64,000 bases of DNA from a virus. Below, piece by piece: positions 1-48,084 of the stretch (positions are counted from its first letter, which is position 1; each line of letters starts with the position of its first letter). The DNA lies in IMG/VR virus record IMGVR_UViG_3300020183_000014, positions 1 to 64,000 of that record; one strand, written 5' to 3'. Under the pieces are notes generated by a model, which saw nothing but the letters and a program-made list of their open reading frames with translations, had not been told where the DNA came from and made no database searches. The position numbers and the translations under genes are program-made.

Positions 1-1935
1 TGGTGTAACACTCGGAGTTACTGAAGGAGTAATCGATGATGTTGGTGTAACACTCGGTGTAACACTTGGTGTTTCAGATGGTGTAACACTCGGTGTAACT
101 GAACTTGTAGGTGTTACTGATGGTGTAACAGATGGTGTAATAGACGGTGTTACCGAACTAGTGGGGGTTACTGATGGAGTTACGGATGGCGTAACAGATG
201 GTGTAACTGATGATGTTGGTGTTATACTTGGTGTGACCGACGGTGTAACTGATGGAGTTACAGAACTAGTAGGTGTTATTGATGGTGTTATAGACGGTGT
301 TATTGAACTAGTAGGTGTTACTGATGGTGTAACAGACGGTGTAACAGACGGTGTTACGGAACTAGTAGGTGTAACAGATGGTGTAACGCTTGGTGTGACC
401 GATGGTGTGACAGAACTAGTGGGAGTTACAGAAGGTGTAACTGACGGAGTGACCGATGGTGTAACAGAACTAGTAGGGGTCACCGATGGTGTTTCAGATG
501 GTGTGACTGAACTAGTTGGTGTCACACTAGGAGTTACTGAAGGTGTTATACTTGGTGTCACAGAAGACGTTGGTGTAACGGAAGGTGTGATGCTTGGTGT
601 AACAGACGGTGTTACTGAACTAGTAGGTGTAACAGATGGTGTAACACTTGGTGTAACACTCGGAGTTACTGAAGGAGTAATCGATGATGTTGGTGTAACA
701 CTCGGTGTAACACTTGGTGTTTCAGATGGTGTAACACTCGGTGTAACTGAACTTGTAGGTGTTACTGATGGTGTAACAGATGGTGTGACTGAACTGGTTG
801 GAGTTACTGATGGTGTAACAGACGGTGTAACAGACGGTGTAACAGAACTAGTTGGAGTCACAGAAGGTGTTACGCTAGGTGTTTCAGATGGGGTTACAGA
901 ACTAGTTGGTGTAACGGAAGGTGTAACACTTGGTGTAATAGATGGTGTAATAGAACTAGTGGGAGTCACAGAAGGTGTTACGCTAGGTGTTTCAGATGGG
1001 GTTACAGAACTAGTGGGAGTTACTGATGGTGTAACAGAAGGTGTTACCGATGGTGTTACGGAACTAGTGGGAGTTACAGATGGTGTTTCAGATGGTGTAA
1101 CAGAAGGTGTAACGCTCGGAGTTATTGACGATGTTGGAGTAATTGAGGGTGTAACACTTGGAGTTATTGAAGGAGTTACCGACGATGTTGGTGTTACAGA
1201 TGGGGTAACACTTGGTGTTTCAGATGGTGTAACACTTGGTGTAACTGAACTAGTCGGGGTTACAGAAGGTGTTTCAGATGGGGTAATAGATGGTGTAGCA
1301 CTTGGTGTAACAGAACTAGTTGGTGTAACAGATGGTGTTACACTCGGTGTAACCGAAGGTGTAACAGAAGATGTAGGAGTTACAGAAGGTGTAACACTTG
1401 GTGTAACCGATGGTGTAACTGAACTAGTAGGTGTTACTGATGGTGTTTCAGATGGTGTAACACTTGGTGTAACTGAACTAGTTGGAGTTACAGAAGGTGT
1501 TTCAGACGGGGTAATAGACGGTGTAACACTTGGTGTAACAGAACTAGTAGGTGTTACTGATGGTGTAACAGAGGGTGTTACACTTGGTGTAATGGAACTA
1601 GTAGGTGTTACAGATGGTGTAACAGAGGGTGTTACTGATGGTGTAACACTTGGTGTAACCGATGATGTTGGTGTTACTGATGGAGTTACTGATGGTGTAA
1701 CACTTGGTGTTATTGAACTAGTAGGAGTTACAGAAGGTGTAAGTGATGGGGTGATGGAAGACGTGGGGGTTACTGATGGTGTTTTAGATGGTGTGATACT
1801 CGGAGTTACGGATGGTGTAACACTTGGTGTAACTGAACTAGTGGGTGTAACACTTGGTGTTCTACTTGGTGTAACAGAAGGTGTTACTGATGGTGTTTGT
1901 GTTAATGTTGGTGTAGGTGTGGGTGAAGGAGTGGG
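1..1935 (-). repeat. 12-bp-period minisatellite encoding SVTP/TPTSS repeats
   Basis: About 1.9 kb of imperfect 12-bp units (four codons, S-V/I-T-P), still running at the left edge. Units are grouped by the block PTSS, whose Thr-Ser codons ACT AGT create a regularly spaced ACTAGT. Positions 1-138 are an exact copy of 649-786 (offset 648 bp = 54 units), which points to duplication by slippage or unequal recombination. Copy number may be unstable or mis-assembled. Confidence 0.9.
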
Positions 1936-2130
1936 ACAAGGAATTTCAGCCACACAGGTTTTATCCAGTGATGGAAAATAAATTGAGTAAGTACCTAAAT
2001 AATAGTTTGTTTCGTAATAATATGGCATTAGGACGGAACCTAAATTTATGGTACCGCCAGTACAAGGATAAAATGTAATGTCACCGATTTCCTCATTAAA
2101 ATTACCCGCGTTTATTTTTATTAATGCCAT
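1..2130 (-). CDS. Thr-Pro-Ser repeat virion protein, probably tail/adhesin (partial, runs off left edge)
   Basis: The frame is open from the ATG at 2128-2130 to the window edge, 710 codons, with the C-terminus missing. Residues 1 to about 65 form a small non-repetitive domain (starts [17 protein letters not shown]). From about residue 66 everything is repeats of SVTP/TPS with regularly placed TPTSS. Similar Thr-Pro-Ser linkers occur in the virion proteins at 45647-47569 and 55816-57537, so a long stalk holding a distal C-terminal domain is the likely role. This is inference; no enzymatic motif is visible. The opposite strand is also open (161-1981, GVTDGV repeats), but only because a 12-bp repeat without stops in one frame can lack them in the antisense frame. 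The start overlaps a possible 40-codon ORF. The function is unproven; the coding strand is confident from the neighbouring genes and the unique N-terminus. Confidence 0.75.
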
Positions 2131-36700: not shown

Positions 36701-38646
36701 TTAAATGATAATTGCCCACTTCTTGATGTGTCTTGATATGTATATATTGGTTCGGGTCTACCCAAAAAAGTATTGTCTTGCCATCTCGCTTGGTTGTTTT
36801 CACTAATCTTTAAATCGTATGGTGGAAACCACATAACCCTACCCCCATTGTTACCTCTTTCACAAAATGGTAAATCATTGTATGTAAATCCTGGTGTATT
36901 TGATGTTCTCCATGCTAAGTTTTCAATTGAAAACATATATTTTTTAGCATAAAATCCATCACCCGTTCCGACACCGTTTGGTGTTTCAAATATATTTGTT
37001 GAGTTTTTAGACCCAAATGAATTTTTAAAACTATTTTTTGCATCATAGTTTCCGCTTGATATAGGTGCAATATTAATATTATACGGTCTACTATCACCAC
37101 CCATTACACTATCATCGAACTTTCTAATATTAGCGGTTCTTTTCATTGTATCTGAATAGTTCATATAGGACCTATCTTTAGTCCAAACACGACAATATTC
37201 AGCTCCTGTTTCTTGTTTATACTTATCAACAAACTTAATTGCGGAACCTCGTGACAACATACTATCACCCTCTTTAAAGATTCTACTGGTTTGGTCAATA
37301 ACGTTACCAACATGTGTTCTTGTTGCTTGACCATCTTTAGGCATTGAATCCAATATTTCTTGAGTTTTACCTAAAATTGAATCTTCTCTAAATCCGTATT
37401 TTGTTGAAATTGAATTGTTATAATCGTTACTTTCTCTTGATTGGAATTCCTCGTTCCATAATCCAATCTTATTCTTTGAGTTTTTACTAATCCACGTAAG
37501 TTTACCACTAATTGGTCCACCTTGGGAAATATTTCTTTGTCTCTCAAATAAAGCGGCTTGTACCGGGTCAAACATTAAACTTAAGAAGTAACTACTTTTA
37601 ACCATGTTGTCATTAAAATCTGACATAGTATATTTTACGTCTTCCGCTCTATCGTCTCCAATATAAGCAACACCTTTTGGTGCTTCAAGTCCTAAAAAGT
37701 TTTTAATTCCACCGGCAACATTGTTTGCAAAATTAAAAAGTTTTGATGATTGTTGTGACCTTGCTGTTGTTGTGTAATTTGGTGCGTATGTTGAATATGA
37801 TAATTGGTCAAACAAAATTTGTTTCTGACCCTCACCTAAGTATTCAACCATTAAGTCAGATGGTTTTCTACCTAATTTTGGTCTTCTTTGAATACCAACT
37901 AAACTACCTAAAACACCTGTTACATCTTGTAATATCGCACCCGCTTCGGTTTTTGGTGTCGGTCTATTTACAATAGGGTTTCTTGGGTTGCTTAAATAAT
38001 CTCCTGGTATTTCACTAAATGGAAATTCAATACCCGCAACCGTTTGGAGAAAATCTACACCTTTACCTAATAAACTTTTAGCAACAGTAATTTTATAGTT
38101 TTTTTCAATTAGAGGTTCTCTTCCTGTAACTATGTTTATCGCTGTTGCGATGTTACCATCCAATGCGTCAAGTATTCTAGCCCTACCTAAAGTTGCTGAT
38201 TCTAAATTTTGTTGTAGTCTGGCTAATACAGGACCTTGTTTGTTTTCTCTAATATTTTGTGTAGCAAATTTCATTAACCTCGAATCGTCATCGAAGTTTT
38301 GACCCGCCATAATACTAACTAAATTAGTTGTTTGGGGTTCAAACGAATTAATATAACCCGCAGATAAAATACCACCATTTAGTTGTGATAAAGTTGGTAA
38401 AGACGTGTTTGTGTATTCCTCAATAGTGCTATTTGGTGGAATATATAGGTTAATAAAATTTTGACCAAAGTATACCGACCAATTTGTTTTAACATCACCA
38501 GGGTCAACATTAGCAAAATTGTTTAGATTTTGAACAACGTAATTTGTATCAGTAAACGTTTGAGGTCCATTGGGTCTGTTTAGGGTTTTTGAAATTAAAA
38601 AATCTCTAAACGCTTTGGTAGTATTAAAATCTAAATATGTTGGCAT
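33799..38646 (-). CDS. Giant tube/baseplate junction protein with OmpA-like domain (gp48/gp54-type segments)
   Basis: 1615 residues. Two segments look like tube-initiator (gp48/gp54) domains: residues ~595-655 (RVMWFPPYDLKISE, FLGRPEPIYTYQDTSRSGQL, FKVVVDHPS) and ~1140-1210 (VLRIGDFYHSKIVIRDVNIS, MIASVTLSINFIGGQG). Between them, residues ~845-915, lies a match to the OmpA C-terminal fold: IRFQILSSCSSVA then YNERLSLRRSHSVIQDIFDR, i.e. the N-x-x-L-S-x-x-R-x-x-x-V core. That fold binds peptidoglycan. The rest includes coiled-coil-rich segments at the C-terminus. Likely bridges tail tube and baseplate. Confidence 0.6.
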   Translation of the reverse strand: MPTYLDFNTTKAFRDFLISKTLNRPNGPQTFTDTNYVVQNLNNFANVDPGDVKTNWSVYFGQNFINLYIPPNSTIEEYTNTSLPTLSQLNGGILSAGYINSFEPQTTNLVSIMAGQNFDDDSRLMKFATQNIRENKQGPVLARLQQNLESATLGRARILDALDGNIATAINIVTGREPLIEKNYKITVAKSLLGKGVDFLQTVAGIEFPFSEIPGDYLSNPRNPIVNRPTPKTEAGAILQDVTGVLGSLVGIQRRPKLGRKPSDLMVEYLGEGQKQILFDQLSYSTYAPNYTTTARSQQSSKLFNFANNVAGGIKNFLGLEAPKGVAYIGDDRAEDVKYTMSDFNDNMVKSSYFLSLMFDPVQAALFERQRNISQGGPISGKLTWISKNSKNKIGLWNEEFQSRESNDYNNSISTKYGFREDSILGKTQEILDSMPKDGQATRTHVGNVIDQTSRIFKEGDSMLSRGSAIKFVDKYKQETGAEYCRVWTKDRSYMNYSDTMKRTANIRKFDDSVMGGDSRPYNINIAPISSGNYDAKNSFKNSFGSKNSTNIFETPNGVGTGDGFYAKKYMFSIENLAWRTSNTPGFTYNDLPFCERGNNGGRVMWFPPYDLKISENNQARWQDNTFLGRPEPIYTYQDTSRSGQLSFKVVVDHPSILNLLVRELFKGMSEEESENYINAFFAGCKELDFYELIRRFTQLDTNDIKLIQSLLNQGQDPETIKQYKVTTEYPTETTPTNTTTQGNEADSKPVDEVIIKLKYENDRPGPSLDLDTTKNYTELYDDYKGQKQAYIDELGAALNTLTGLSQTDTQVKTEKSFIFGDANHVITQSDIDAQKTKIGDYFDQADVSFNKYVSSLNSLISDISGKTAETIRFQILSSCSSVATNDYNERLSLRRSHSVIQDIFDRLSAVGGKKEWQIKWPENLNLVNKDNSENDKEIIQQGQPIVILKEYNTKDFGFEHDTKIIVESVNYGETLTGTQPDKDCVNKDFVRVPKLKQYSPIAFYCRQTAMSLKYNNKSEKKQPDTPTPQPPITKIEENGQVVVNPPTRKPAIDPLKRIIAKTLSECFYFKKLEETDPIVFSSLKEKLKYFHPAFHSTTPEGLNARLTFLQQCIRPGDTIPIKGISEESDVRARNTAFGPPPVCVLRIGDFYHSKIVIRDVNISYDDGGQILFDLNPEGIGVQPMIASVTLSINFIGGQGLSKPVERLQNALSSNFFANTEMYDERSIATNETIGGRNAEEFTREFLADLNKTYTNAINKNNQSQNTKNVKDGNYMGTLDGNSIKYTDIIKSVFTSTESYFDKYQDTYNKVYTKYGKDITALLFKGEYRPINQYDIYTSTSPTPGKTLSLLGLYKKTQELTVYTSGLKTGLANFLNDSSSTYLVNMVEFDKEMTGSILTDTNVKLKDFITKEIIENKINELTDSTQILDELEKSRNQLISDLDRVNFVIKNGKDSTVQDSIVKSVAISGFTSDLLYNEYSTCVDYIETNAPKLVDGLSTNITFLNPTIQSADFEFMMKQLLFDKVEAFISELKDPLLYKDHLKNQLKKRLNKFVEKPEEQKFKLTKFKKRKSDKEIKFGISSTTDETNQTIIDEANQIFSTSNEVTDKLNYYRPQ

Positions 38647-38653
38647 TTACATT

Positions 38654-38660
38654 ATAAATA
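38654..38660 (-). promoter_or_regulatory. Candidate late promoter/leader motif TATTTAT
   Basis: Sense-strand CTATTTATAATGTAAATG, 7 bp before the ATG of the 1615-residue gene. Confidence 0.4.
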
Positions 38661-38674
38661 GAAACTTTTTAATT

Positions 38675-40636
38675 TTAATTAAATTGAGGTGGCAAGGTAA
38701 AAGATGTGTAATCTAATTGTGAAGGTGTAACCGTTTGACGCATTTCATTTACCACTGATGGACTTTTATACATTTCCCGAACAACCGCATCCAAAACAGG
38801 ACCATTTGTTTTAAAGTTATGTTCGTGTTTATAATTAACCACTGCGGCCGTTTGATTTGAGTTTTGATTATTGGTATTACCTTTTAATTTATTTTCCAAA
38901 TCAGATTCACTTACACCCATACTTTTAGCAACCAAAGCTTTAGCGGGTGCAACTGCTTCACTAACCATCTTAGAAAATAACTCTTCGTCCGTTTTTTGTA
39001 ACCCACCTAAACTTGTTTTTTCTTTTAAATTTTCAGATAACTCTAACCCTTCAATGTATTTGTCAAATTCAGCTAAAGGTTGTCTTATTGTCGCGGCCGC
39101 TTGTACCTTAGCAACTGTTAATAATGCACTTATGTCTTTTTGCATATTTTGGGTTGCGGTATATTGGTCTCTTGCAATATCTTCAACAGACATATCTTCA
39201 AAAGCTTTTTGGTTCTCTAATAAACCTTTTGCAATTGTTGGACTTAATTCATCTAATGCAACTTTAGTATCCTGCAATCCTAATTCTTTTGCCAAGGATT
39301 GAGGGATGTCAATAACCATTCTACCACCCTCCATTTTAGAGATGTTGGTTAAGAACTCTTTTTCTTTTTCGTCAATTTGTAGACCTGATGATAACAACGC
39401 GGTTGCTGCTGACGACCTTTCCGCAGCTTTGATTGCGGTTTTAGACATCTCTTCCATACTCATACCCATTTGGTCCGCTAATGCTTTAGATTTTCTAAGA
39501 TTAGCTCCTGTGATTTCAAACCTACCTAATTCAGTATTATATGTGGCTAATGAACCTGCAACACCTATCATAGCATCTTGTAATCCACCAGCATCGTTGG
39601 TCGCCATATACATTAATTTTAATGGGTCATTAAAGTCACCAATAGCGCCTCCTATAGCTTGTAATTCAGCAGATAACGCAATTGCTTGGTCCGGGTCAAA
39701 AAGTTTTTCCGCCATTGTTTTAACCTTTTCAATATTCATATTAAATTCAATAGACTTCTGAACCATTCTGGTTAATCCCTCAACACCATTTTTAAATCCA
39801 ATGGTATTTAATTTGTCCATATTAGCACCAACATCCGCCACTACTTTTCTTGCATTTAAACCAAGAGTTAATGAACTTTTACCCGCTTTGTCAATTTCTT
39901 TGATTGCATCTTTTGCACCAATACCTATTTTGTCAAAACTATCTAACGCGGCACCCAATCTATATAAATCACCATAAAATGCTCTTGCTGTTTTTTGAGA
40001 TTCTTGTAAAACATCTTTACCGAATGTTGTCATCTTACCAGTTTGTTCAACCATTTGTACTGAATAATCTTTCACATCCTCAAAACTAAATCCCATGGCG
40101 GTTGCGGCTGGTAATGTTTCAAATATATTGTTTCTAAATTGTCTCGATAATTCACCGGTTAAACCAAGTTCAGAATTAATTTTATTTCTTAATTCCACTT
40201 CTTGTTTTTGTATTTTTTCCAATTCTTTACCGAGAAAAGACACCATTTCACTAGTTCCTTTAACACCTAATTGAACCATAAAATCAGGTAGATTTTTTGA
40301 TTCTCTCGCTATTTTACCTATTGTTTCAGATATGGTGCTAAATTGAAATACAGTATCTTTTTGTAATGATAATGATGAAACAGGATTTGAATACCCTAAG
40401 TCCGCAATGTCTTGTGTTTTTAGTAAGTCGGTTGCATAAGACGCTGTTTTACTACCCGCACCTCCTGTGTTCCCTCCGCTTGATGGTTCTTTTTGGTTAT
40501 AAAATGACCAATAATCATCTACTTTACCCATTAAAGAACTATTATTCTGTACTGATTGCAATTTTAAGAACTCGTTTTTGAATTGAGTATAATTTAAACC
40601 TGCTCTTAGTTTGGATACCTCTTCATTAATTGTCAT
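38675..40636 (-). CDS. Tail tape measure protein (gp29-like)
   Basis: 653 residues (T4 gp29 is 590). Almost entirely helical, with long amphipathic heptad-rich segments and small-residue-rich stretches (AIALSAELQAIGGAIGDFND, MSKTAIKAAERSSAATALLS), typical of tape measure proteins that set tail length inside the tube. Its position directly after the gp26/gp51-like chaperone pair is the classic place for a tape measure gene. The C-terminus (NYKHEHNFKTNGPVLDAVVR) is less helical and may contact the baseplate hub. No lytic domain is visible. Confidence 0.72.
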   Translation of the reverse strand: MTINEEVSKLRAGLNYTQFKNEFLKLQSVQNNSSLMGKVDDYWSFYNQKEPSSGGNTGGAGSKTASYATDLLKTQDIADLGYSNPVSSLSLQKDTVFQFSTISETIGKIARESKNLPDFMVQLGVKGTSEMVSFLGKELEKIQKQEVELRNKINSELGLTGELSRQFRNNIFETLPAATAMGFSFEDVKDYSVQMVEQTGKMTTFGKDVLQESQKTARAFYGDLYRLGAALDSFDKIGIGAKDAIKEIDKAGKSSLTLGLNARKVVADVGANMDKLNTIGFKNGVEGLTRMVQKSIEFNMNIEKVKTMAEKLFDPDQAIALSAELQAIGGAIGDFNDPLKLMYMATNDAGGLQDAMIGVAGSLATYNTELGRFEITGANLRKSKALADQMGMSMEEMSKTAIKAAERSSAATALLSSGLQIDEKEKEFLTNISKMEGGRMVIDIPQSLAKELGLQDTKVALDELSPTIAKGLLENQKAFEDMSVEDIARDQYTATQNMQKDISALLTVAKVQAAATIRQPLAEFDKYIEGLELSENLKEKTSLGGLQKTDEELFSKMVSEAVAPAKALVAKSMGVSESDLENKLKGNTNNQNSNQTAAVVNYKHEHNFKTNGPVLDAVVREMYKSPSVVNEMRQTVTPSQLDYTSFTLPPQFN

Positions 40637-40640
40637 ATCT

Positions 40641-40647
40641 ATAAATA
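40641..40647 (-). promoter_or_regulatory. Candidate late promoter/leader motif TATTTAT
   Basis: Sense-strand ATATTTATAGATATG, 4 bp before the tape measure ATG, in the 11-bp gap after the gp51-like stop. Confidence 0.4.
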
Positions 40648-40791
40648 TTATTTAGGAGCGTTTTCTAATTCAATAATATACTCCACGTAATATCTACGTA
40701 TGAAAACGGGCATGGTGATAATATCACCATAACTAAAACCTCTTTTGATTAAAAATAAAATTTCATCTAACTGTCCTTTCTTATAAGCCAT
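40648..40791 (-). CDS. gp51-like small protein / frameshift extension of the gp26-like chaperone
   Basis: 47 residues from the ATG at 40789-40791, which overlaps the end of the gp26-like frame by 11 bp. The frame stays open upstream without a stop through the overlap, in the +1 frame of the gp26-like gene, so the product may instead be made as a fusion of about 293 residues (243 + 50) by a +1 shift at TTT TTT CGC (40799-40807). Helical sequence DEILFLIKRGFSYGDIITMP. In T4, gene 51 follows gene 26; tail assembly chaperones of other phages are made as frameshift pairs immediately before the tape measure gene, exactly this layout. Confidence 0.65.
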   Translation of the reverse strand: MAYKKGQLDEILFLIKRGFSYGDIITMPVFIRRYYVEYIIELENAPK

Positions 40792-41530
40792 AGAAAGGGC
40801 GAAAAAACTCAACCCCGAACCCAATTTCAACTTGGGTGTCTTCTCCTGACGGGGTTTTTACTGTTTTTGTTAAATCTAATCCTGGTTTATTTTCTTTTAC
40901 AAATTTTTTGAAATCTTGGGAATCTTTGATTGGTAATCTTTCCACAAAATTGTGAATATTCATCATATCCTTGTTTCCTGCAACAGATTTAATCATCATT
41001 TCTAATTGTTTTGTCACGATAGGTGCAACACCTTGACCGTTCCAACTTCTTTTTAAATCATCAAGTTCTTTTTCTTGTTTTGGTGTTAAAAATTTAAATG
41101 TAATTTGAACTTTTGATTTTTCCATAAAATATGGGTATTCACCATTCGAATCGCATTCTAAATTAAAATCTTTGAATTTTAATTCACTCATATCAACAGA
41201 TACTTCAAATTCCTTTTCGGTTTTAGGGTCTGTTAAATAGAATTTATATTCAGGACCGAAAGCGGTGTTTCTTAAAAATATTAATACCGCTTGTCTATCT
41301 TCTTCAACAATATCTTCAATTTGAATATCTCTATCCAAAATTTTTCTTTTTAATAATTCATCTATTACACCATTCGAGGCAATAAGATTTTGAGCTGATA
41401 ATATATTTTCATCGGCGGCTGTTAAATACGCAACCTTGAGTGATTTCTTTTTATTTTGATAGTGTATACCTCTTGAGGGTAGTTCAACAACATCATATGC
41501 AATTGTTGGGTCAACTCTAAATTCTTCCAT
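40781..41530 (-). CDS. 26: Baseplate hub/tail assembly protein, gp26-like (T4 baseplate family)
   Basis: 249 residues (T4 gp26 is about 208). The N-terminal VVELPSRGIHYQNKKKSLKV carries the L-P-S-(K/R)-G-x-x-Y pattern of the T4 gp26-type family, followed by YLTAADENILSAQNLIASNG and DIVEEDRQAVLIFLRNTAFG. Acts in hub or tube assembly rather than in the mature tail, by analogy. Followed by a gp51-sized frame and the tape measure. Preceded by the gp19 terminator; no TATTTAT element within 100 bp, so its promoter is unclear. Confidence 0.65.
   Translation of the reverse strand: MEEFRVDPTIAYDVVELPSRGIHYQNKKKSLKVAYLTAADENILSAQNLIASNGVIDELLKRKILDRDIQIEDIVEEDRQAVLIFLRNTAFGPEYKFYLTDPKTEKEFEVSVDMSELKFKDFNLECDSNGEYPYFMEKSKVQITFKFLTPKQEKELDDLKRSWNGQGVAPIVTKQLEMMIKSVAGNKDMMNIHNFVERLPIKDSQDFKKFVKENKPGLDLTKTVKTPSGEDTQVEIGFGVEFFRPFYGL
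40799..40807 (-). other. Candidate programmed +1 frameshift site UUU_UUU_CGC
   Basis: In the gp26-like frame the codons read GAG TTT TTT CGC. Peptidyl-tRNA-Phe can slide from UUU onto UUC, with a rare Arg codon (CGC) waiting in the A site of this AT-rich genome; the same logic as the UUU_CGU shift site of influenza PA-X. The +1 frame then runs into GCC CTT TCT ATG and the gp51-like frame, giving a ~293-residue fusion. Confidence 0.5.
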
Positions 41531-41569
41531 ATTTTTTATTTTATAACTAGTATAGTTTACGAAAACTTT

Positions 41570-41604
41570 TAAAAAAAGTAAAGGTCTCCTTTTGAGAGAC
41601 CTTT
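41570..41604 (-). terminator. Terminator after gp19
   Basis: Stem AAAGGTCTC / GAGACCTTT (41580-41588 and 41596-41604), 7-nt loop, followed on the minus strand by ACTTTTTTTAAAAG. Lies 26 bp past the gp19 stop. Confidence 0.85.
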
Positions 41605-41629
41605 TATTGACAGATTTTTTATTATTTGA

Positions 41630-42118
41630 TTAGTAAACTAAAATACATCTATCCATTCTTAACGAACATGTGATAGATGCAATATCATCTCTTGAATAAT
41701 CAAGTTCGTTAAAGTTTAAGTCGGTTATGAAAGAACCTTGAAGTATCCATTTTTCAACCACAACCCCCGTTGGGTCTAACATCTCTAATTCAATATCCTT
41801 TTTATAACCAGCTGCGTAACCCATACGACCTGTTACTGATTCGGCGTGTAGACGGAACCATTCCATCAACGCTTGTGACGCTGAAGGACCAATTGGGTCT
41901 TTGAAGGTTACTCTTATTTCACTCCATTCAAATCTACCAGCAACATATGTTGAGGTGTTTATAAAAGGAATTGCAACTGAATTTATTTTTGCGCTTGGTC
42001 TTGCACTTGATGTTACATACCATTCATTTATTCCTAATGATGAAGGAAATCTAAGTATGAATCGGTTAACTCTTTTCGGTTCGTAAGGAACCGGCATTTT
42101 CATTAATAAATCTGCCAT
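41630..42118 (-). CDS. 19: Tail tube protein gp19-like
   Basis: 162 residues (T4 gp19 is 163). The pattern ADLLMKMPVPYEPKRVNRFI, FSSLGINEWYV-type strand, then FEWSEIRVTFKDPIGPSASQ and MEWFRLHAESVTGRMGYAAG is characteristic of T4-type tube proteins, as is the ending DIASITCSLRMDRCILVY. Stacked hexamers line the tail for DNA passage. It has its own terminator and a late element 42 bp upstream, and is separated from the sheath gene by a 348-bp intergenic region, so its level can be set independently. Confidence 0.92.
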   Translation of the reverse strand: MADLLMKMPVPYEPKRVNRFILRFPSSLGINEWYVTSSARPSAKINSVAIPFINTSTYVAGRFEWSEIRVTFKDPIGPSASQALMEWFRLHAESVTGRMGYAAGYKKDIELEMLDPTGVVVEKWILQGSFITDLNFNELDYSRDDIASITCSLRMDRCILVY

Positions 42119-42160
42119 GTCAATATTTGTTTTTTATTTTTTTTATTTTTAATCTTTCTT

Positions 42161-42167
42161 ATAAATA
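42161..42167 (-). promoter_or_regulatory. Candidate late promoter/leader motif TATTTAT
   Basis: Sense-strand ATATTTATAAGAAAG, 42 bp before the gp19 ATG. The longer spacing leaves room for a real 5' leader. Confidence 0.4.
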
Positions 42168-42241
42168 TGTTGTATATGAAAAAACAAAAAAAATCTTCTC
42201 AATACTTGATTTTGTGAAAATTATTTCGTATTTTTTCCATA

Positions 42242-42338
42242 CTAGTACTAGATGCTAGTAAATTAAGAACTAGATTAAAGAAACTAGAATAACTAGAAAG
42301 AAATAAACTAGATAAAAATAAACTAGAACTAGAACTAG
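42242..42338. repeat. Cluster of ten CTAG tetranucleotides in the gp18-gp19 gap
   Basis: Within 97 bp, CTAG occurs at 42242, 42248, 42255, 42270, 42284, 42293, 42308, 42323, 42329 and 42335, most inside (A)ACTAGA(A/T). The region is non-coding on both strands. CTAG is usually one of the rarest tetranucleotides in bacterial DNA, so this density is striking; it looks like an array of protein-binding half-sites. Confidence 0.8.
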
Positions 42339-42417
42339 AATACTGGTGCATATACTGGGTAATTTATAATTTTATTTTTTTTATATTTAGTAGTTCCGTA
42401 GGTCACACTATATTATA

Positions 42418-42435
42418 ATGTTCCACGTGGAACAT
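42418..42435. promoter_or_regulatory. parS-like centromere palindrome
   Basis: Perfect 18-bp palindrome ATGTTCCACGTGGAACAT. Its inner 16 bp (42419-42434) equals the ParB-binding parS form TGTTCCACGTGGAACA known from Pseudomonas-type chromosomes and is two bases from the common TGTTTCACGTGAAACA. It lies 7 bp beyond the sheath-gene terminator on the minus strand. No parA or parB gene is in this window. Confidence 0.6.
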
Positions 42436-42441
42436 AAAATA

Positions 42442-42459
42442 GGGAGGGTTTCCCCTCCC
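42442..42459 (-). terminator. Terminator after gp18 with GAAA tetraloop
   Basis: Minus-strand stem GGGAGGG-GAAA-CCCTCCC, a 7-bp GC-only stem closed by a stable GNRA loop, followed by TATTTTATG. It sits 8 bp past the sheath stop. The U-run is short, so partial read-through into the gp19 gene is possible. Confidence 0.75.
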
Positions 42460-42466
42460 CTTTTTA

Positions 42467-45322
42467 TTAGATATCATCAAATGATGCTCCTGTTGGTGTA
42501 ATTATGAACTCAACATCTATGAATTCTAGAGCTCTTGTTGGTTTGATATAAATCTTACCTCTCAAAGTATTAGAGTCAATGTCTTCTGGGTCGTTGGAAA
42601 CCGTAACACGGAATTCATATAAACCCCTTTCCCTTTTAATTGCATCTAATATTGGGTTAACCAATCTCAAGAATTCATTACGAACTTGTTCGTCATTTTG
42701 TTCGAATAACAATCTTACCGCTACTGCCGAAATTAATTTTCTAGCCCTTAACAATAATCTTCTTACGTTAATTCTATCCAACGCCGATTCACGAATTTGA
42801 AGGGTTTTGTTACCCCATATAATTGTGCCGGTATCTGCGTATGTTGCTATTGGGTTAATTCTAGCTTTGTATAGGTCATCTCTTTCATCTAAAGTTAATT
42901 TCTTAACCGCTTTAATTGAATTTACTAATCCTCTTGAATAACCCGCTACCGCAAACCAAGGGAAAGATACGTTATCGGTTAACGCAATATTTCTTAAAAC
43001 TTCACCAGTTGGTGGTAGATATATTTGTACGGCGTTGTCTACGTCTCTAACTTGAATCCAAGGCCAATAAACAGCTGAATAATTACTATCAATCGACACA
43101 CCGTCCAAAGCGTCTATTACTTCATCCGCAGTACTGTAGTTTGGTGGTGAAATTACGTAAAGAGAATCCGCTCTATCGTCTTCAATCATATCAATTGCAT
43201 ATGACGTTAAAGAACTATTGTCATAGAAGTTAATACCCGGTGTTGCAAAAATGTTTATATCAACTGATTCAGGATTTGAGAAGGTGTCAATACCTTGGGC
43301 GTAAGCGTAGTAATCAGAGTTTCCCGATACCGTGCTAAACACGCCTCCATTATTGGTATTACCACTTGTGTAAGTGTTTTTACCAAAGATGAATCCATCA
43401 CCGTAGGTTCTCACATTTCTATAGATATCCCAACCATCAAATCCTCCAGCAGCGGTAAAAGTGAACTTACGATAATTGATGTTTGTCAATACGTTACTAA
43501 CTCCACCTGTTTGACCCTCTAAATCATACGATGTAGTTAAGAAAGTTGTTCCTGTGATTGTAGACGCGTTTGTTGATAAGTGGAAACCCTTAGTCGTACC
43601 AGCCGCTGAAGTTCCTTTGAATTTAAATAAGTCCCTATCGTATGTTACTTTATTGGTTGGACTTGATAAACCAAAGTATGTTTTTCTCACTTTATCACCT
43701 GAAGATAAAACCGGTGTTCCATCTGCGAGATAAGATTCGGTATCACCAGCATTAAAGAATGTAGTTTTGTAAATCACAGAACCCAAAGTGTCTGAACCGA
43801 AAGTACTGTTATTCGGGAATCCTTTAAATCCGGCGGGATATGCGTCAACGGGGTGATTATCAGACATTAACAGCATAATGTATTTTGAACGTATTTCATA
43901 TTCACCATCGGATGTACCAACCTTTTTAGCCACATAATTAGGTAAATCTGGATTCATACTACATCTACTAAATTTTTCAAGTACGACAATATTATTGTCT
44001 GTATCGTTAAAATCTCTAACAATTAAGTCAAAGTCACCCGTGTCTATATTGATATTAATAATAGAAATTTTTACCTCAAAGTTCGCTGCGTCCCCGTCTG
44101 ATATTGTAATTACATCAAATAAATCATTGACTTCACCACCTCTTACTTCAGAAACAACAGTTGGTGATATTGGAGTATCATAAGACGTTTTAAAGTCATT
44201 ACCAACAGTTTCATAAGATTCTGTTAAGCTTAAACCTCTAATATATCCTTCTTCATAAGCTCTTAACAAATAATTTGGATAAGCTTCAAATACATAAATA
44301 GGAACGTCACCTTTTAATTTGTCATAAACATCTGTACCAAATACTTTTGTTACATATTTTGATGACGACGCATCCATACTACAAGTAAATGATTTTGCTC
44401 CGCTCGTTGAACCTGTAATATTCACTGTAAATTCAGCTAAAGGATTTGTAGTAATTCCTGAACCTGTCACAATGAAATTAGCATTCCCCGTGGACTCTAA
44501 GTTTAAAGTTTGTTGGCTGTAAGAGCCTCTTGGTCTGAACGCTAAAACAACCTGATTATTATATGCCGTATTGAGTGTTGCGTTGTAGGTGAACTTAGTC
44601 ACATCAAATCTACTTGCACCACTGTTGTATACAAATAAGTAAGAATACACTTCAGAACCCGCGGAATTTACTAAAACATTATACCATTCCTTATTGTTAT
44701 TATTATTTGCGTTATTTAAACCTGTTAGAGGAGAAAGTTCTTCAAGTGATGCGGTTTGACCAGAGGTTTGTGAAGTTGGTACTTCACCCATAACAAACCA
44801 CTCTCCATGATTAGATGATGTGTTACCACTAAAGTTTGCCACAATATAATCTGTAATATAATTTCCATCTACAGATATTTTATCTGATAGTTCACTATAA
44901 ATCGTACTTGCCGTGATTGTTGTGGTCTGTGCTGACATTGTTAAACCCGTGGTTGTACCACTAAGCGATTCCAATATAACACCAGCAATTGTCTTAACCC
45001 CGTAAGTTTTAACAGGTAAGTAACCCGTTAAACCCAATATTTTTGTTACAAATAATTGGTTTGATTCTTCTAAATAAGATTTTGCAAAATAAGGTAATTC
45101 ATATTTTGGGTTATTGTTGTTGTCTTTTAAGGGACTTGTTCCTCCAAAATATGACTTGAATTCGTCAAAATTAGTTATTAATAAAGGTTCAAAAGCGGGA
45201 CCCTTTAAGGTTTCACCCACCAAACCTAATGTGCTGACACCAACACTTTGTGCCACGAATGTTAAGTCTTTTTCGGATGTGTATACACCCGGAGATACAA
45301 AAACTCTATTTGAATTTGCCAT
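42467..45322 (-). CDS. 18: Tail sheath protein gp18-like
   Basis: 951 residues (T4 gp18 is 659, so there are large surface insertions). N-terminus FVSPGVYTSEKDLTFVAQSV is the classic sheath start. The C-terminal contractile core has PWFAVAGYSRGLVNSIKAVK, IIWGNKTLQIRESALDRINV, RRLLLRARKLISAVAVRLLF and the final DVEFIITPTGASFDD. Long Thr/Ser/Gly-rich middle segments probably form outer decorations. A late element lies 39 bp upstream and a GAAA-loop terminator just downstream, so it is a single-gene unit, as expected for the most abundant tail protein. Confidence 0.93.
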   Translation of the reverse strand: MANSNRVFVSPGVYTSEKDLTFVAQSVGVSTLGLVGETLKGPAFEPLLITNFDEFKSYFGGTSPLKDNNNNPKYELPYFAKSYLEESNQLFVTKILGLTGYLPVKTYGVKTIAGVILESLSGTTTGLTMSAQTTTITASTIYSELSDKISVDGNYITDYIVANFSGNTSSNHGEWFVMGEVPTSQTSGQTASLEELSPLTGLNNANNNNNKEWYNVLVNSAGSEVYSYLFVYNSGASRFDVTKFTYNATLNTAYNNQVVLAFRPRGSYSQQTLNLESTGNANFIVTGSGITTNPLAEFTVNITGSTSGAKSFTCSMDASSSKYVTKVFGTDVYDKLKGDVPIYVFEAYPNYLLRAYEEGYIRGLSLTESYETVGNDFKTSYDTPISPTVVSEVRGGEVNDLFDVITISDGDAANFEVKISIININIDTGDFDLIVRDFNDTDNNIVVLEKFSRCSMNPDLPNYVAKKVGTSDGEYEIRSKYIMLLMSDNHPVDAYPAGFKGFPNNSTFGSDTLGSVIYKTTFFNAGDTESYLADGTPVLSSGDKVRKTYFGLSSPTNKVTYDRDLFKFKGTSAAGTTKGFHLSTNASTITGTTFLTTSYDLEGQTGGVSNVLTNINYRKFTFTAAGGFDGWDIYRNVRTYGDGFIFGKNTYTSGNTNNGGVFSTVSGNSDYYAYAQGIDTFSNPESVDINIFATPGINFYDNSSLTSYAIDMIEDDRADSLYVISPPNYSTADEVIDALDGVSIDSNYSAVYWPWIQVRDVDNAVQIYLPPTGEVLRNIALTDNVSFPWFAVAGYSRGLVNSIKAVKKLTLDERDDLYKARINPIATYADTGTIIWGNKTLQIRESALDRINVRRLLLRARKLISAVAVRLLFEQNDEQVRNEFLRLVNPILDAIKRERGLYEFRVTVSNDPEDIDSNTLRGKIYIKPTRALEFIDVEFIITPTGASFDDI

Positions 45323-45361
45323 TTTTAAATTGTTTGGTTAATTAATTTTATTTCTTTATCA

Positions 45362-45368
45362 ATAAATA
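45362..45368 (-). promoter_or_regulatory. Candidate late promoter/leader motif TATTTAT
   Basis: Sense-strand AAAGATATTTATTGATAAA, 39 bp before the sheath ATG. The 18-base context is nearly identical to the element before the gp13-like gene at 51049, on the other strand. Confidence 0.5.
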
Positions 45369-45445
45369 TCTTTGTTTTTAGCAAAGATTCCCTTGATTTT
45401 TTTAAAAATGGTACTTATGGATACTAATTTATACTTTAATATCTA

Positions 45446-45452
45446 TATTTAT
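45446..45452 (+). promoter_or_regulatory. Candidate late promoter/leader motif TATTTAT
   Basis: CTATATTTATCTTTATCATG: 7 bp before the ATG of the 58-residue plus-strand gene. Confidence 0.4.
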
Positions 45453-45459
45453 CTTTATC

Positions 45460-45636
45460 ATGAAAAACTCCTCGAAAAATATAAAGGTTAGTGAAAATCA
45501 TCATAAAATGTTAAAAGAACATTGCGATAAAAATGGATTAAAAATTTACAAGGTTGTTCAAAAATGGATTGATGAGTTTTGTAAAACAGGAAAGGTGAAT
45601 GATTCACCTAAGAAAAAAGACCTATACGGGGATTAA
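45460..45636 (+). CDS. Small DNA-binding-like protein (ribbon-helix-helix type?)
   Basis: 58 residues, running opposite to the surrounding tail genes. After a basic start, the stretch KVSENHHKMLKEHCDKNGLK, then IYKVVQKWIDEF, fits the strand-helix-helix layout of Arc/CopG-like repressors (I-V-S-E..H..LKE.C...G..I...V..WI.E); the tail is Lys/Asp-rich. It has its own TATTTAT element and ends 10 bp before the stop of the gp15-like gene, which converges on it. A regulator of late genes is plausible but unproven. Confidence 0.65.
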   Translation: MKNSSKNIKVSENHHKMLKEHCDKNGLKIYKVVQKWIDEFCKTGKVNDSPKKKDLYGD

Positions 45637-45646
45637 TTGAATATTA

Positions 45647-47569
45647 TTAAGCACCATTTGTTGAAGACGGTGTTGGAGTAACAGATGGTGTAGGAGTAAC
45701 ACTTGGAGTAACAGATGGTGTTATCGATGCACTTACTGATGGGGTAAGAGAACTTGTTGGGGTCACAGATGGCGTTGGGGATGGTGGGGTGACTAAATCA
45801 ATTTGCAACGTATCATTATCACCGATACTTTGAGTTAAAATATATGTTTCAGTGTTCGGTGCATTACCGGTATATCCACTTATTAGGTGACCATTTTCAT
45901 AAACACGTAGAACATATCCGGTTCCACCAGTAATCGAGACAAACAAAAAATCACCAGCAACGCTTGAATTAATAAACGCGTTTTGACTTACCCCATATAA
46001 AATAGGAAATTCAAAGTTCCACATAGCCGAAAAACTACTACCAAAAGATGATATTACAGAACCATTAGTATTAGTATTTGTAAACAATAAATTTCTGAAA
46101 GGCGTGGGTGTTGGTGTTAATGTTGGAGTTGGGGTTGGGGTTAATGATGGAGTTAATGATGGTGTTGGTGTTATTGATGGTGTAATAGAAGGGGTAATTG
46201 TTGGTGTAACAGATGGTGTCATGGATGGTGTGGTAGATGGCGTTATCGACGGTGTGACTGAACTAGTTTGAGTTACAGAAGGTGTAATTGATGGTGTTGG
46301 TGTTATCGACGAACTTACTGATGGGGTAATAGAACTTGTTGGGGTTACTGACGGAGTTAATGATGGTGTTGGTGTTATCGACGAACTTACTGATGGGGTA
46401 ATAGAACTTGTTGGGGTTACTGACGGAGTTAATGATGGTGTTGGTGTCGGTGTTGGAGGTATCGTAAAAGTTGATTGGGTGATTACATCGTACCTATATT
46501 TTGTTTTTCCAATTGTATCGACTTCAATGGAACCAAAAGTGTTTGTTTGTGTTAAATTACTAAATGTACCATCAATAGTATATTGAGTGGTTCCACTATA
46601 TTGATTTGATTCAATAAAAATTTTCACTGGTATACTTATAGAACTACCAGTAACCGTCGATAACGTATCTGTAAAAGATATTTCAACGGTTTTATCCACT
46701 TTTTTAGTTGATGTTGCAGTGTATTGTGCAATGATTGAACCACTTGAGTAATTTGATGATATAGTTATTATATTTTCAGATTTATCGATTGATGGTATAC
46801 TTCTTAAATCAGGTTCAATCATCGTTATACTTCTATTTACCGCTGGTGAAACTTCGAACTCCTCATCATCAATTAGAAACCCTAACATTGTAAATCCATA
46901 ATTTTGAACGTAGAATCTTCTACCATCCAAGGTGTCCATTGGGGTATTATCTTCAATTCTATCTAACACGATTGGAATGTAGTGTCCTTTCACTCGGGTG
47001 TATCCCTGACGAGACGAAAACTTTTGTAAAACCTTTTGATTGAATTTATTTATGTCTCTAAATTTTGTACAGACAATTGTTACATCAAAACTAATGTCAA
47101 CCGCAATTGGTTGAGGGATTTTATAGATATCAGCACCCATTTGGTTTCCATCCCAAGTTGGAACCGAAGCGTAAAAGAAATCTCTTCTATCAGGGATGGT
47201 TCTTTGAATTGATGGATTAGTACCTAATTGAACTTCAGGTTTTCTTACAACCGCGATAAACGGTAATTTAATATTTCCATCTTCATCACTAAAAGACCAA
47301 TTATTGGTGTATTCACCCCACCTTTGAATTGTTAAAATTTTTGGAATCATAGGTATTTGGTCACCATCGGAAATTACTTTGAAATTTTCTTTCACAAATT
47401 CCAACATACCTAAATCAAGGTCGTCATGTAATATTGAATCAGGAAGGAATGTGTCAGATTTTATAATTTCTTCTAACAATTCTTTTCTTCTACCCATTAT
47501 TGCAGGACCATCGGCGTTTTGGTTTGCGCCATATACTTTAATATCTTTTTTTCTTTTTGGTAATCCCAT
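45647..47569 (-). CDS. Tail completion/sheath-terminator protein, gp15-like, with Thr-Pro-Ser extension
   Basis: 640 residues. The N-terminal ~250 residues ([94 protein letters not shown]) resemble T4-type gp15 tail-terminator proteins, which cap sheath and tube. After ~residue 370 come Thr-Pro-Ser repeats to ~490, a ~105-residue beta domain ([20 protein letters not shown] onward) and a second short Thr-Pro-Ser tail. T4 gp15 is only 272 residues, so the extension is an added, probably surface-exposed, module. 3 bp from the gp14-like gene. Confidence 0.55.
46108..46455 (-). repeat. Thr-Pro-Ser minisatellite with an exact 72-bp duplication
   Basis: 12-bp-period repeats like those at 1-1935. 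Within it a 72-bp (24-codon) unit, centred on [18 protein letters not shown], is present twice in a row at about 46294-46437. Confidence 0.8.
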
Positions 47570-47571
47570 AA

Positions 47572-48084
47572 TTAAATTCCTCTAAATTCAGATTCTTGGG
47601 CTATTGCACAAGTGATGGTTCTATAATGAGGTCTGAAACCAAACATATTATGTTTATTATCTGAAGTAACCTTTCCATCGTTTACTACCGTATAGTATCT
47701 AATTCTTTCTTCTGATTCGGGATATCCAATAAAGTCACCATATCTAATATCAATATCCATTTCTTCAAGATGTTTGATGTATACGGATACTGTCATATTA
47801 CCAGGTTCCAAATATCTATTTACACCTTTAGTGTATGAATTATTTTTAGGTTCTTCAATTTTAACCAATCCAAAAAATTCAGTAGGTGGTAAAAATTTAA
47901 TTTGGTCTTTACCCACCTCACCATAAACATCATCTGTGTCGGTTTTTTGTCTATCTACCCTAAATAGAACTAATTTCATACCCAAATCACCATGCAAATA
48001 TTCTTCACCTAACTGAACATTTAAATCAAAATCAGTTTCAGAAAAGAACTTACTTAGCCTGGTTATTGGTAGTTTATTTTTCAT
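47572..48084 (-). CDS. Neck/connector protein, gp14-like position
   Basis: 170 residues. Contains [20 protein letters not shown] followed by [20 protein letters not shown], then a beta-rich part with [20 protein letters not shown], and an ending [17 protein letters not shown]. The D-V-Y-G-E motif and size suit a neck or head-tail connector protein; T4 gp14 is 256 residues. It is the first gene of the unit leading to the gp15-like gene (3 bp gap). Assigned by context more than by sequence. Confidence 0.45.

Follow-up and report, generated by a model that had tools for sequence, protein, structure and literature searches.

The window analysed here, 64 kb in length, is the first part of a 133,999-base virus record whose source is a T4-like myovirus with recognisable genes for the sheath, the tube, the baseplate hub, a family-B polymerase and an SNF2-type helicase. 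The region of interest is the gap between two minus-strand genes, an upstream neighbour that encodes a tail sheath protein of 951 aa (42467–45322), and a downstream neighbour that encodes a tail tube protein of 162 aa (41630–42118). Both assignments are based on PHROGs matches, and agree with the names gp18 and gp19 used for these genes in an earlier note on the same DNA. Read along the minus strand, the sheath stop codon is followed by a terminator-like hairpin (42441–42460; the plus strand is terminator-like too, at 42442–42459), and directly downstream of this hairpin lies the palindrome ATGTTCCACGTGGAACAT (42418–42435, assigned to neither strand). Next come a TATAA element (42413–42417, minus strand), a CTAG/CCAG-rich array that starts with CCCAGTAT (42240–42360, minus strand), an A-rich segment, GGAAAAAATACGAAA...TCAAG, that is conserved in relatives (42205–42238, minus strand), and finally the motif TATTTATA (42160–42167, minus strand) ahead of the tube start. 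The length of the gap varies; from the coordinates, it is only 94 and 45 nt in the cultured relatives Mel-JY01 and immuto, and in six loci (L154, L219, L148, L190, L265 and L165) it has grown to 1.8–2.2 kb by insertions. The motif TATTTATA is found 10–120 nt upstream of 19 of the 113 genes of at least 100 aa (its reverse complement before 9 of the 113), and 13 of the 19 occurrences sit 11–21 nt before the start codon. A possible role is that of a late promoter of leaderless mRNAs, or of a translation signal.

The palindrome is perfect over 18 bp, with the half-sites GTTCCAC and GTGGAAC in the letters of the window, and its inner 16 bp (42419–42434) are identical to the parS 16-mer TGTTCCACGTGGAACA. 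The site also agrees exactly with the 16-bp chromosomal-type parS pattern TGTTYCACGTGRAACA, and each half is a perfect half-parS heptamer when this is defined as GTTCCAC or GTTTCAC. When up to three mismatches to parS are allowed, the 64-kb window contains two matches, one of them exact, compared with 0.26 expected in shuffles. TGTTNCACGTGNAACA has a single occurrence in the whole 134-kb record, as does the looser pattern GTTYCACNNGRAAC, and no further copy of the palindrome is present elsewhere in the record. The description of a lone, exact parS 16-mer between gp18 and gp19, not to be expected by chance, is thus borne out by the letters, by the single copy in 134 kb and by the mismatch scan. 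Its designation as an established parS sequence is likewise sound, as TGTTCCACGTGGAACA is listed as a Pseudomonas parS in PMC7022226, and forms small clusters in Bacteroidota genomes.

Relatives were collected by four protein searches of viral contigs, and the best 80 of about 600 matches from each gave 305 partly overlapping loci. The gap is spanned by 264 of these, and the counts below refer to 133 distinct gap sequences (one contig can carry several locus ids). With a score cut-off of 17 for dyad carriers, the dyad GTTYCACnnGRAAC is found at the same place in 89 of the 133 distinct gaps; the remaining 44 are without it, which implies that the dyad is dispensable in some lineages. The carriers comprise 62 distinct 40-mers, where the centre is CACGTG in 25, CACATG in 13, CATGTG in three, and of other types in the rest. 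A GT centre is present in 35 of the distinct forms, the pattern TGTTYCACGTGRAACA in six and exact parS in five. Conservation of parS throughout the family, a point that the earlier note had proposed to check, does not hold in view of these numbers, and a strict parS reading for the whole family was rejected because the centre drifts among relatives. The exact site recurs in L514, L466 and L066, whose gaps agree with those of L517 and L128 at 58–63% of the aligned positions; the L517 gap is identical to that of the window. L014 has the exact site as well, and its 1.9-kb gap was omitted from the identity comparison. In 19 records of 60–311 kb, the pattern GTTYYAYNNGRAAC is rare, and the exact GTTCCACGTGGAAC occurs once each in seven of them. 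When 24 kb of the window served as query, a similarity search of phage records returned no matches.

What the relatives do retain is the half-site. At least one perfect half-parS copy is kept in 57 of the 62 distinct 40-mers (42 left, 29 right, 14 both), compared with a shuffle mean of 51.4, and a value of 57 was reached by 6 of 2000 shuffles, in a calculation that ignores shared ancestry. There is a negative association between intact left and intact right halves (Fisher p=0.003, and p=0.04 on the 36 distinct 16-mers, again with shared ancestry ignored). Since shared ancestry is left out of these statistics, we regard them as supportive of half-site preservation, not as decisive. Within 60 nt of the dyad, 11 additional half-sites are present in 82 sequences, against 0.95 expected.

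The host is likely a member of the Bacteroidota, because Shine-Dalgarno-like motifs are rare (they precede just 4 of 91 ATG starts, genome-wide) and because of weak similarity to cultured phages. The distant cultured relatives are phages of Flavobacterium, Rhodothermus and Salinibacter, but include cyanophages too, all at weak similarity. A search of genome contigs with the tube protein found no relative, for which reason the host stays inferred. In seven of seven Bacteroidota genomes, all of them picked for an exact site detected in a scan, the exact 16-mer is present at 1–5 sites, and in five of these genomes 2–5 sites fall within 14 kb. In the family to which a Flavobacterium soli genome belongs, 57 of 60 genomes match TGTTYCACNNGRAACM; three of these 57 (G027, G041 and G083) do so only with another centre. 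Among the host sites listed for the 60 genomes, most are TGTTYCACGTGRAACA, often as two sites about 1.9 kb apart; Y/R freedom is seen at positions 5 and 12, and three of the listed sites end in C, as do many phage dyads. The clustered sites among those listed nearly all have the CACGTG centre, the exception being G044, where a CACCAG match lies 2.7 kb from parS, and the listed matches with other centres are mostly isolated singles. CACATG, the centre of 13 of the 62 phage forms, is absent among the host sites listed. Phage dyads and host parS are thus alike in the half-site, in the Y/R freedom and in the variable terminal letter, but the fixed centre of host parS is not a feature of the phage dyads.

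A palindrome of this kind can be read as DNA or act as RNA. In the latter case, a hairpin with the stem GTTCC/GGAAC and the loop ACNN would form part of a terminator, take part in mRNA processing or belong to the tube leader. The dyad does follow a terminator-like hairpin with its orientation kept, other hairpin-forming sequence is present in the same gap, and in another viral group a match to the Mu-gpT-DE RNA encloses the parS-like sequence (L671). A maintained RNA stem should, however, show compensation beyond shuffles, and none is clear. All five stem pairs are complete in 45 of the 62 forms, compared with 43.0 when the right halves are shuffled, and 280 of 2000 shuffles score as high. C–A mismatches are common in the stem, with ten at pair 3/14, and a control palindrome that has this stem but a swapped centre seldom falls between genes (see below). 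The hairpin was set aside on these grounds, and we consider it improbable. Together, the intact halves, the extra half-sites and the absence of RNA stem compensation favour a protein-bound DNA site, possibly read by the ParB of the host.

A DNA site does not have to be a ParB site. TATAA is found 6–7 nt past the 16-mer in 35 of the 62 distinct forms, compared with 2.3 expected in shuffles, and this link suggests that a promoter of the array or the tube gene is controlled here. The dyad might then be the operator of a transcription factor, either encoded by the phage or another one of the host, at such a promoter, and its likeness to parS would be a matter of convergence. The tie to the promoter-like TATAA, the drift of the centre away from parS among relatives, and the constant position of the dyad in the gap are all compatible with an operator. 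The half-site, the Y/R position and the terminal A/C, on the other hand, resemble host parS, and a single phage regulator would not explain exact intergenic parS sites elsewhere, some also beside a second variant. In addition, the window has its TATAA at offset 1 instead of 6–7, and a promoter consensus scan of 41500–42700 gave no more matches than shuffles. On balance, an operator of this type seems rather unlikely to us. The location of the site beside virion genes, with TATAA next to it, speaks for regulation as much as for the positioning, condensation or interference considered in the earlier note.

Of the 99 CTAG tetramers in the record, ten fall in the sheath–tube gap, and in 78 distinct gaps shorter than 450 nt the total is 426, compared with 46 in shuffles. 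At least three CTAG/CCAG elements are present in 123 of the 133 distinct gaps, 82 of the 89 with a dyad and 41 of the 44 without, so that the array has a wider distribution than the dyad. In many relatives the array forms long imperfect hairpins in single folds, or consists of tandem CTAG repeats. As judged by eye, the outer arms of the hairpins change in step in some members (CCCAGTAT...ATACTGGG versus CCCGGTAT...ATTACCGGG), but RNAalifold on 50 aligned gaps recovers the terminator stem only, the array hairpins being visible in single folds. An Rfam search of 38000–48000 in the window gave no match at E values up to 1. A T4-type promoter-linked origin and a leader RNA are offered only as ideas for the array. 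Apart from the first 2 kb of the window, CTAG is nowhere denser than in the array. Those first 2 kb are CTAG-rich too and hold a 606-aa ORF (161–1981, plus strand) with no Pfam match and one weak PHROG match, and with a GC content of 0.44 and a GC skew of 0.48, compared with a GC content of about 0.32 elsewhere in the window.

Beyond the family of the window, the exact 16-mer was found in at least 120 stretches of viral contigs, compared with 54 and 2 in complete scans for two palindromes of the same composition. The control with 54 has its centre swapped and the one with 2 keeps the CACGTG core, so the controls themselves differ 27-fold, and the enrichment calculated from at least 120 stretches is a lower bound. 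Sheath or tube genes are found in just two of the 120, L014 and L066, so that 18 contigs that carry the exact site according to the protein searches (30 loci, merged by contig name) are missing from them. Provided that no record was withheld from the scan, the 120 are therefore a small part of the total. The placement relative to genes differs sharply between parS and the control. Of 127 parS occurrences, 51 touch no ORF of at least 60 aa, 56 are enclosed by long ORFs, and the other 20 fall in small ORFs or at edges; the corresponding numbers for the centre-swapped control are 1, 51 and 2 of 54. We regard this wider pattern in viral contigs as a stronger result than that for the window's own family. 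A minority of intergenic parS sites lie beside terminators (5 of 48, against 0.96 expected).

Several of these sites recur in similar surroundings. TGTTCCACGTGGAACA and TGTTTCACGTGAAACA are 7–8 bp apart in five of the at least 120 loci, and in L049, L071, L108 and L109 the first of the paired variants is 61 nt from the start of the gene for the terminase large subunit. The pairs just upstream of terminase, with variants 8 bp apart, occupy 310–349 in L049 and 3372–3411 in L071. Of the 120 loci listed, 16 code for a terminase large subunit that resembles that of L049; in L002 a single site lies about 40 nt before terminase, and in several other loci the site is far away. The capsid-type gene of L045 has relatives in nine of the 120 loci listed, itself included, and parS is found within about 100 nt after a capsid-type gene in L029, L032, L045, L055, L074, L090, L095 and L096; in L037 the distance is about 800 nt. 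The L074 stretch matches annotated major capsid protein genes of Planktothrix phage Pag-Yong1 and phage DSL-LC04. These recurrent capsid and terminase contexts are largely those of one related phage group. Ten proteins encoded downstream of sites comprise two terminases, two that match only families of unknown function and six with no match, and that the sites generally prefer virion and packaging genes is no more than suggested. The 28,949-base contig of L105 has five exact parS copies, several of them just upstream of ORFs with the TGCTACGNT motif. Similarity searches of phage records returned nothing for 11 kb of L105, and weak, short matches only for a capsid-gap stretch.

In the capsid-adjacent group, a parS-like site is found upstream of the post-capsid gene in 6 of 61 members, query contig included, at three different places. 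This count is based on 62 of 80 loci, 61 of which have 100 nt upstream; 17 loci where the match does not start at residue 1 were left out, as was L653, which is near a contig end. In L671–L673, the parS-like TGTTTCACATGGAACA is located in the gap after the capsid-type gene, upstream of position 1501 (1093 in L673), and that of L671 is inside a sub-threshold match to the Mu-gpT-DE RNA (44.7 bits, where the cut-off is 49). The small number of members with a site, and the possibility for it to be located inside an RNA stem in this group, count against a reading by ParB. A scatter over three places of one gap, in a minority of members, is what would be expected for a palindrome that moves, or is copied time and again, from one phage gap to another, or for functionless noise. 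In the family of the window, by contrast, the place is fixed and half-sites are preserved, and the host genomes examined have only a few copies each. Of the alternatives weighed here, mobility or noise is the one to which we assign the lowest probability, and we regard it as improbable.

As for the protein that reads the site, the earlier note had allowed for a phage ParB encoded outside the window. The ParB_N domain (PF02195) was not found in the 134-kb record, which is possibly a fragment, and the same search was positive in 10 of 14 control genomes. A profile search also failed to detect ParB_N in 17 related records and the 351-kb contig of L023, some of which may be fragments, and in 50 chosen parS contigs of 4.9–116 kb, many of them fragments. 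The 50 contigs were hand-picked from loci with a site outside a long ORF (72 occurrences), and L014 and L066 among them are from the window's own family. Given these negative results with PF02195 in the record, the 17 relatives and the 50 chosen contigs, a phage-encoded ParB of this type was rejected as the reader. The other proposal of the earlier note, recruitment of host ParB, fares unevenly. It fits the excess of orphan parS between viral genes, but is weakened by the drift of the parS centre in the family and by the gaps that lack the dyad.

ParB acts as a clamp that depends on CTP, is loaded at parS and spreads from there (PMC12704722). Several chromosomal ParBs bind the half-parS GTTCCAC/GTTTCAC in vivo, as described in PMC7022226 and PMC10419367, and in P. 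aeruginosa this binding is independent of spreading (PMC10419367). Half-parS binding was not seen for 9 of the 19 ParBs compared in PMC7022226. Because ParB loads at parS, and several ParBs bind half-parS, host ParB is the reader that we favour. We give about even chances to the palindrome being an orphan parS/half-parS site that is recognised by the chromosomal ParB of the host rather than by a phage protein. Host ParB would bind the palindrome during infection, and the degenerate dyads of relatives would be bound through their remaining half-parS. With less confidence, bound ParB may act on the adjacent late-gene control region, where it could occupy or roadblock the promoter-like TATAA and the array. 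Alternatively, and also with less confidence, the site may serve to load sliding clamps close to the virion and packaging genes of the phage, with a role in organising or packaging its DNA, or ParB could be titrated by the many phage copies. A wider proposition is that phages of different groups carry intergenic orphan parS/half-parS dyads, preferably near packaging or virion genes, and load host ParB without a ParB of their own, for late-gene control, for DNA organisation and packaging hand-over, or to draw ParB off the host chromosome. This generalisation is more tentative than host ParB binding at the palindrome itself, and we consider it less likely than not.

Compared with the bacterial chromosomal ParABS system, the phage site has the same exact 16-bp palindrome, with the Y/R freedom in each half (PMC7022226 lists the sequence). 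The phage site differs from ParABS in being single, in its location beside tail genes, in the absence of a detected ParB_N in the record, and in the unconserved centre of its relatives. The half-parS heptamer GTTCCAC/GTTTCAC of P. aeruginosa and some other ParBs is the one retained in 57 of the 62 distinct phage dyads. Known half-parS sites are on chromosomes, and moderate expression changes are described in PMC10419367 when 25 of them are mutated, whereas the phage half-sites are paired as a dyad in a control region. The Mu-gpT-DE RNA (Rfam RF03012) has a parS-like palindrome within or beside its match in another viral group (L671 and L607), but 38000–48000 of the window is without an Rfam match. 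Phage DNA as such is a known carrier of partition sites. P1 carries parS, mycobacterial extrachromosomal prophages reportedly have parABS on phage DNA, and parABS phages and prophages of these types encode their own partition proteins. The presence of parS on phage DNA is thus shared with them, and the difference is that no ParB is detected here with PF02195. parS is usually regarded as the centromere of a chromosome or plasmid and as a companion of its ParB. A literature search, with few subscription journals covered, found no published report of an excess of orphan parS in phage gaps. If such an excess between phage genes, with no ParB_N detected alongside, is genuine, phages would exploit a near-universal clamp of their hosts.
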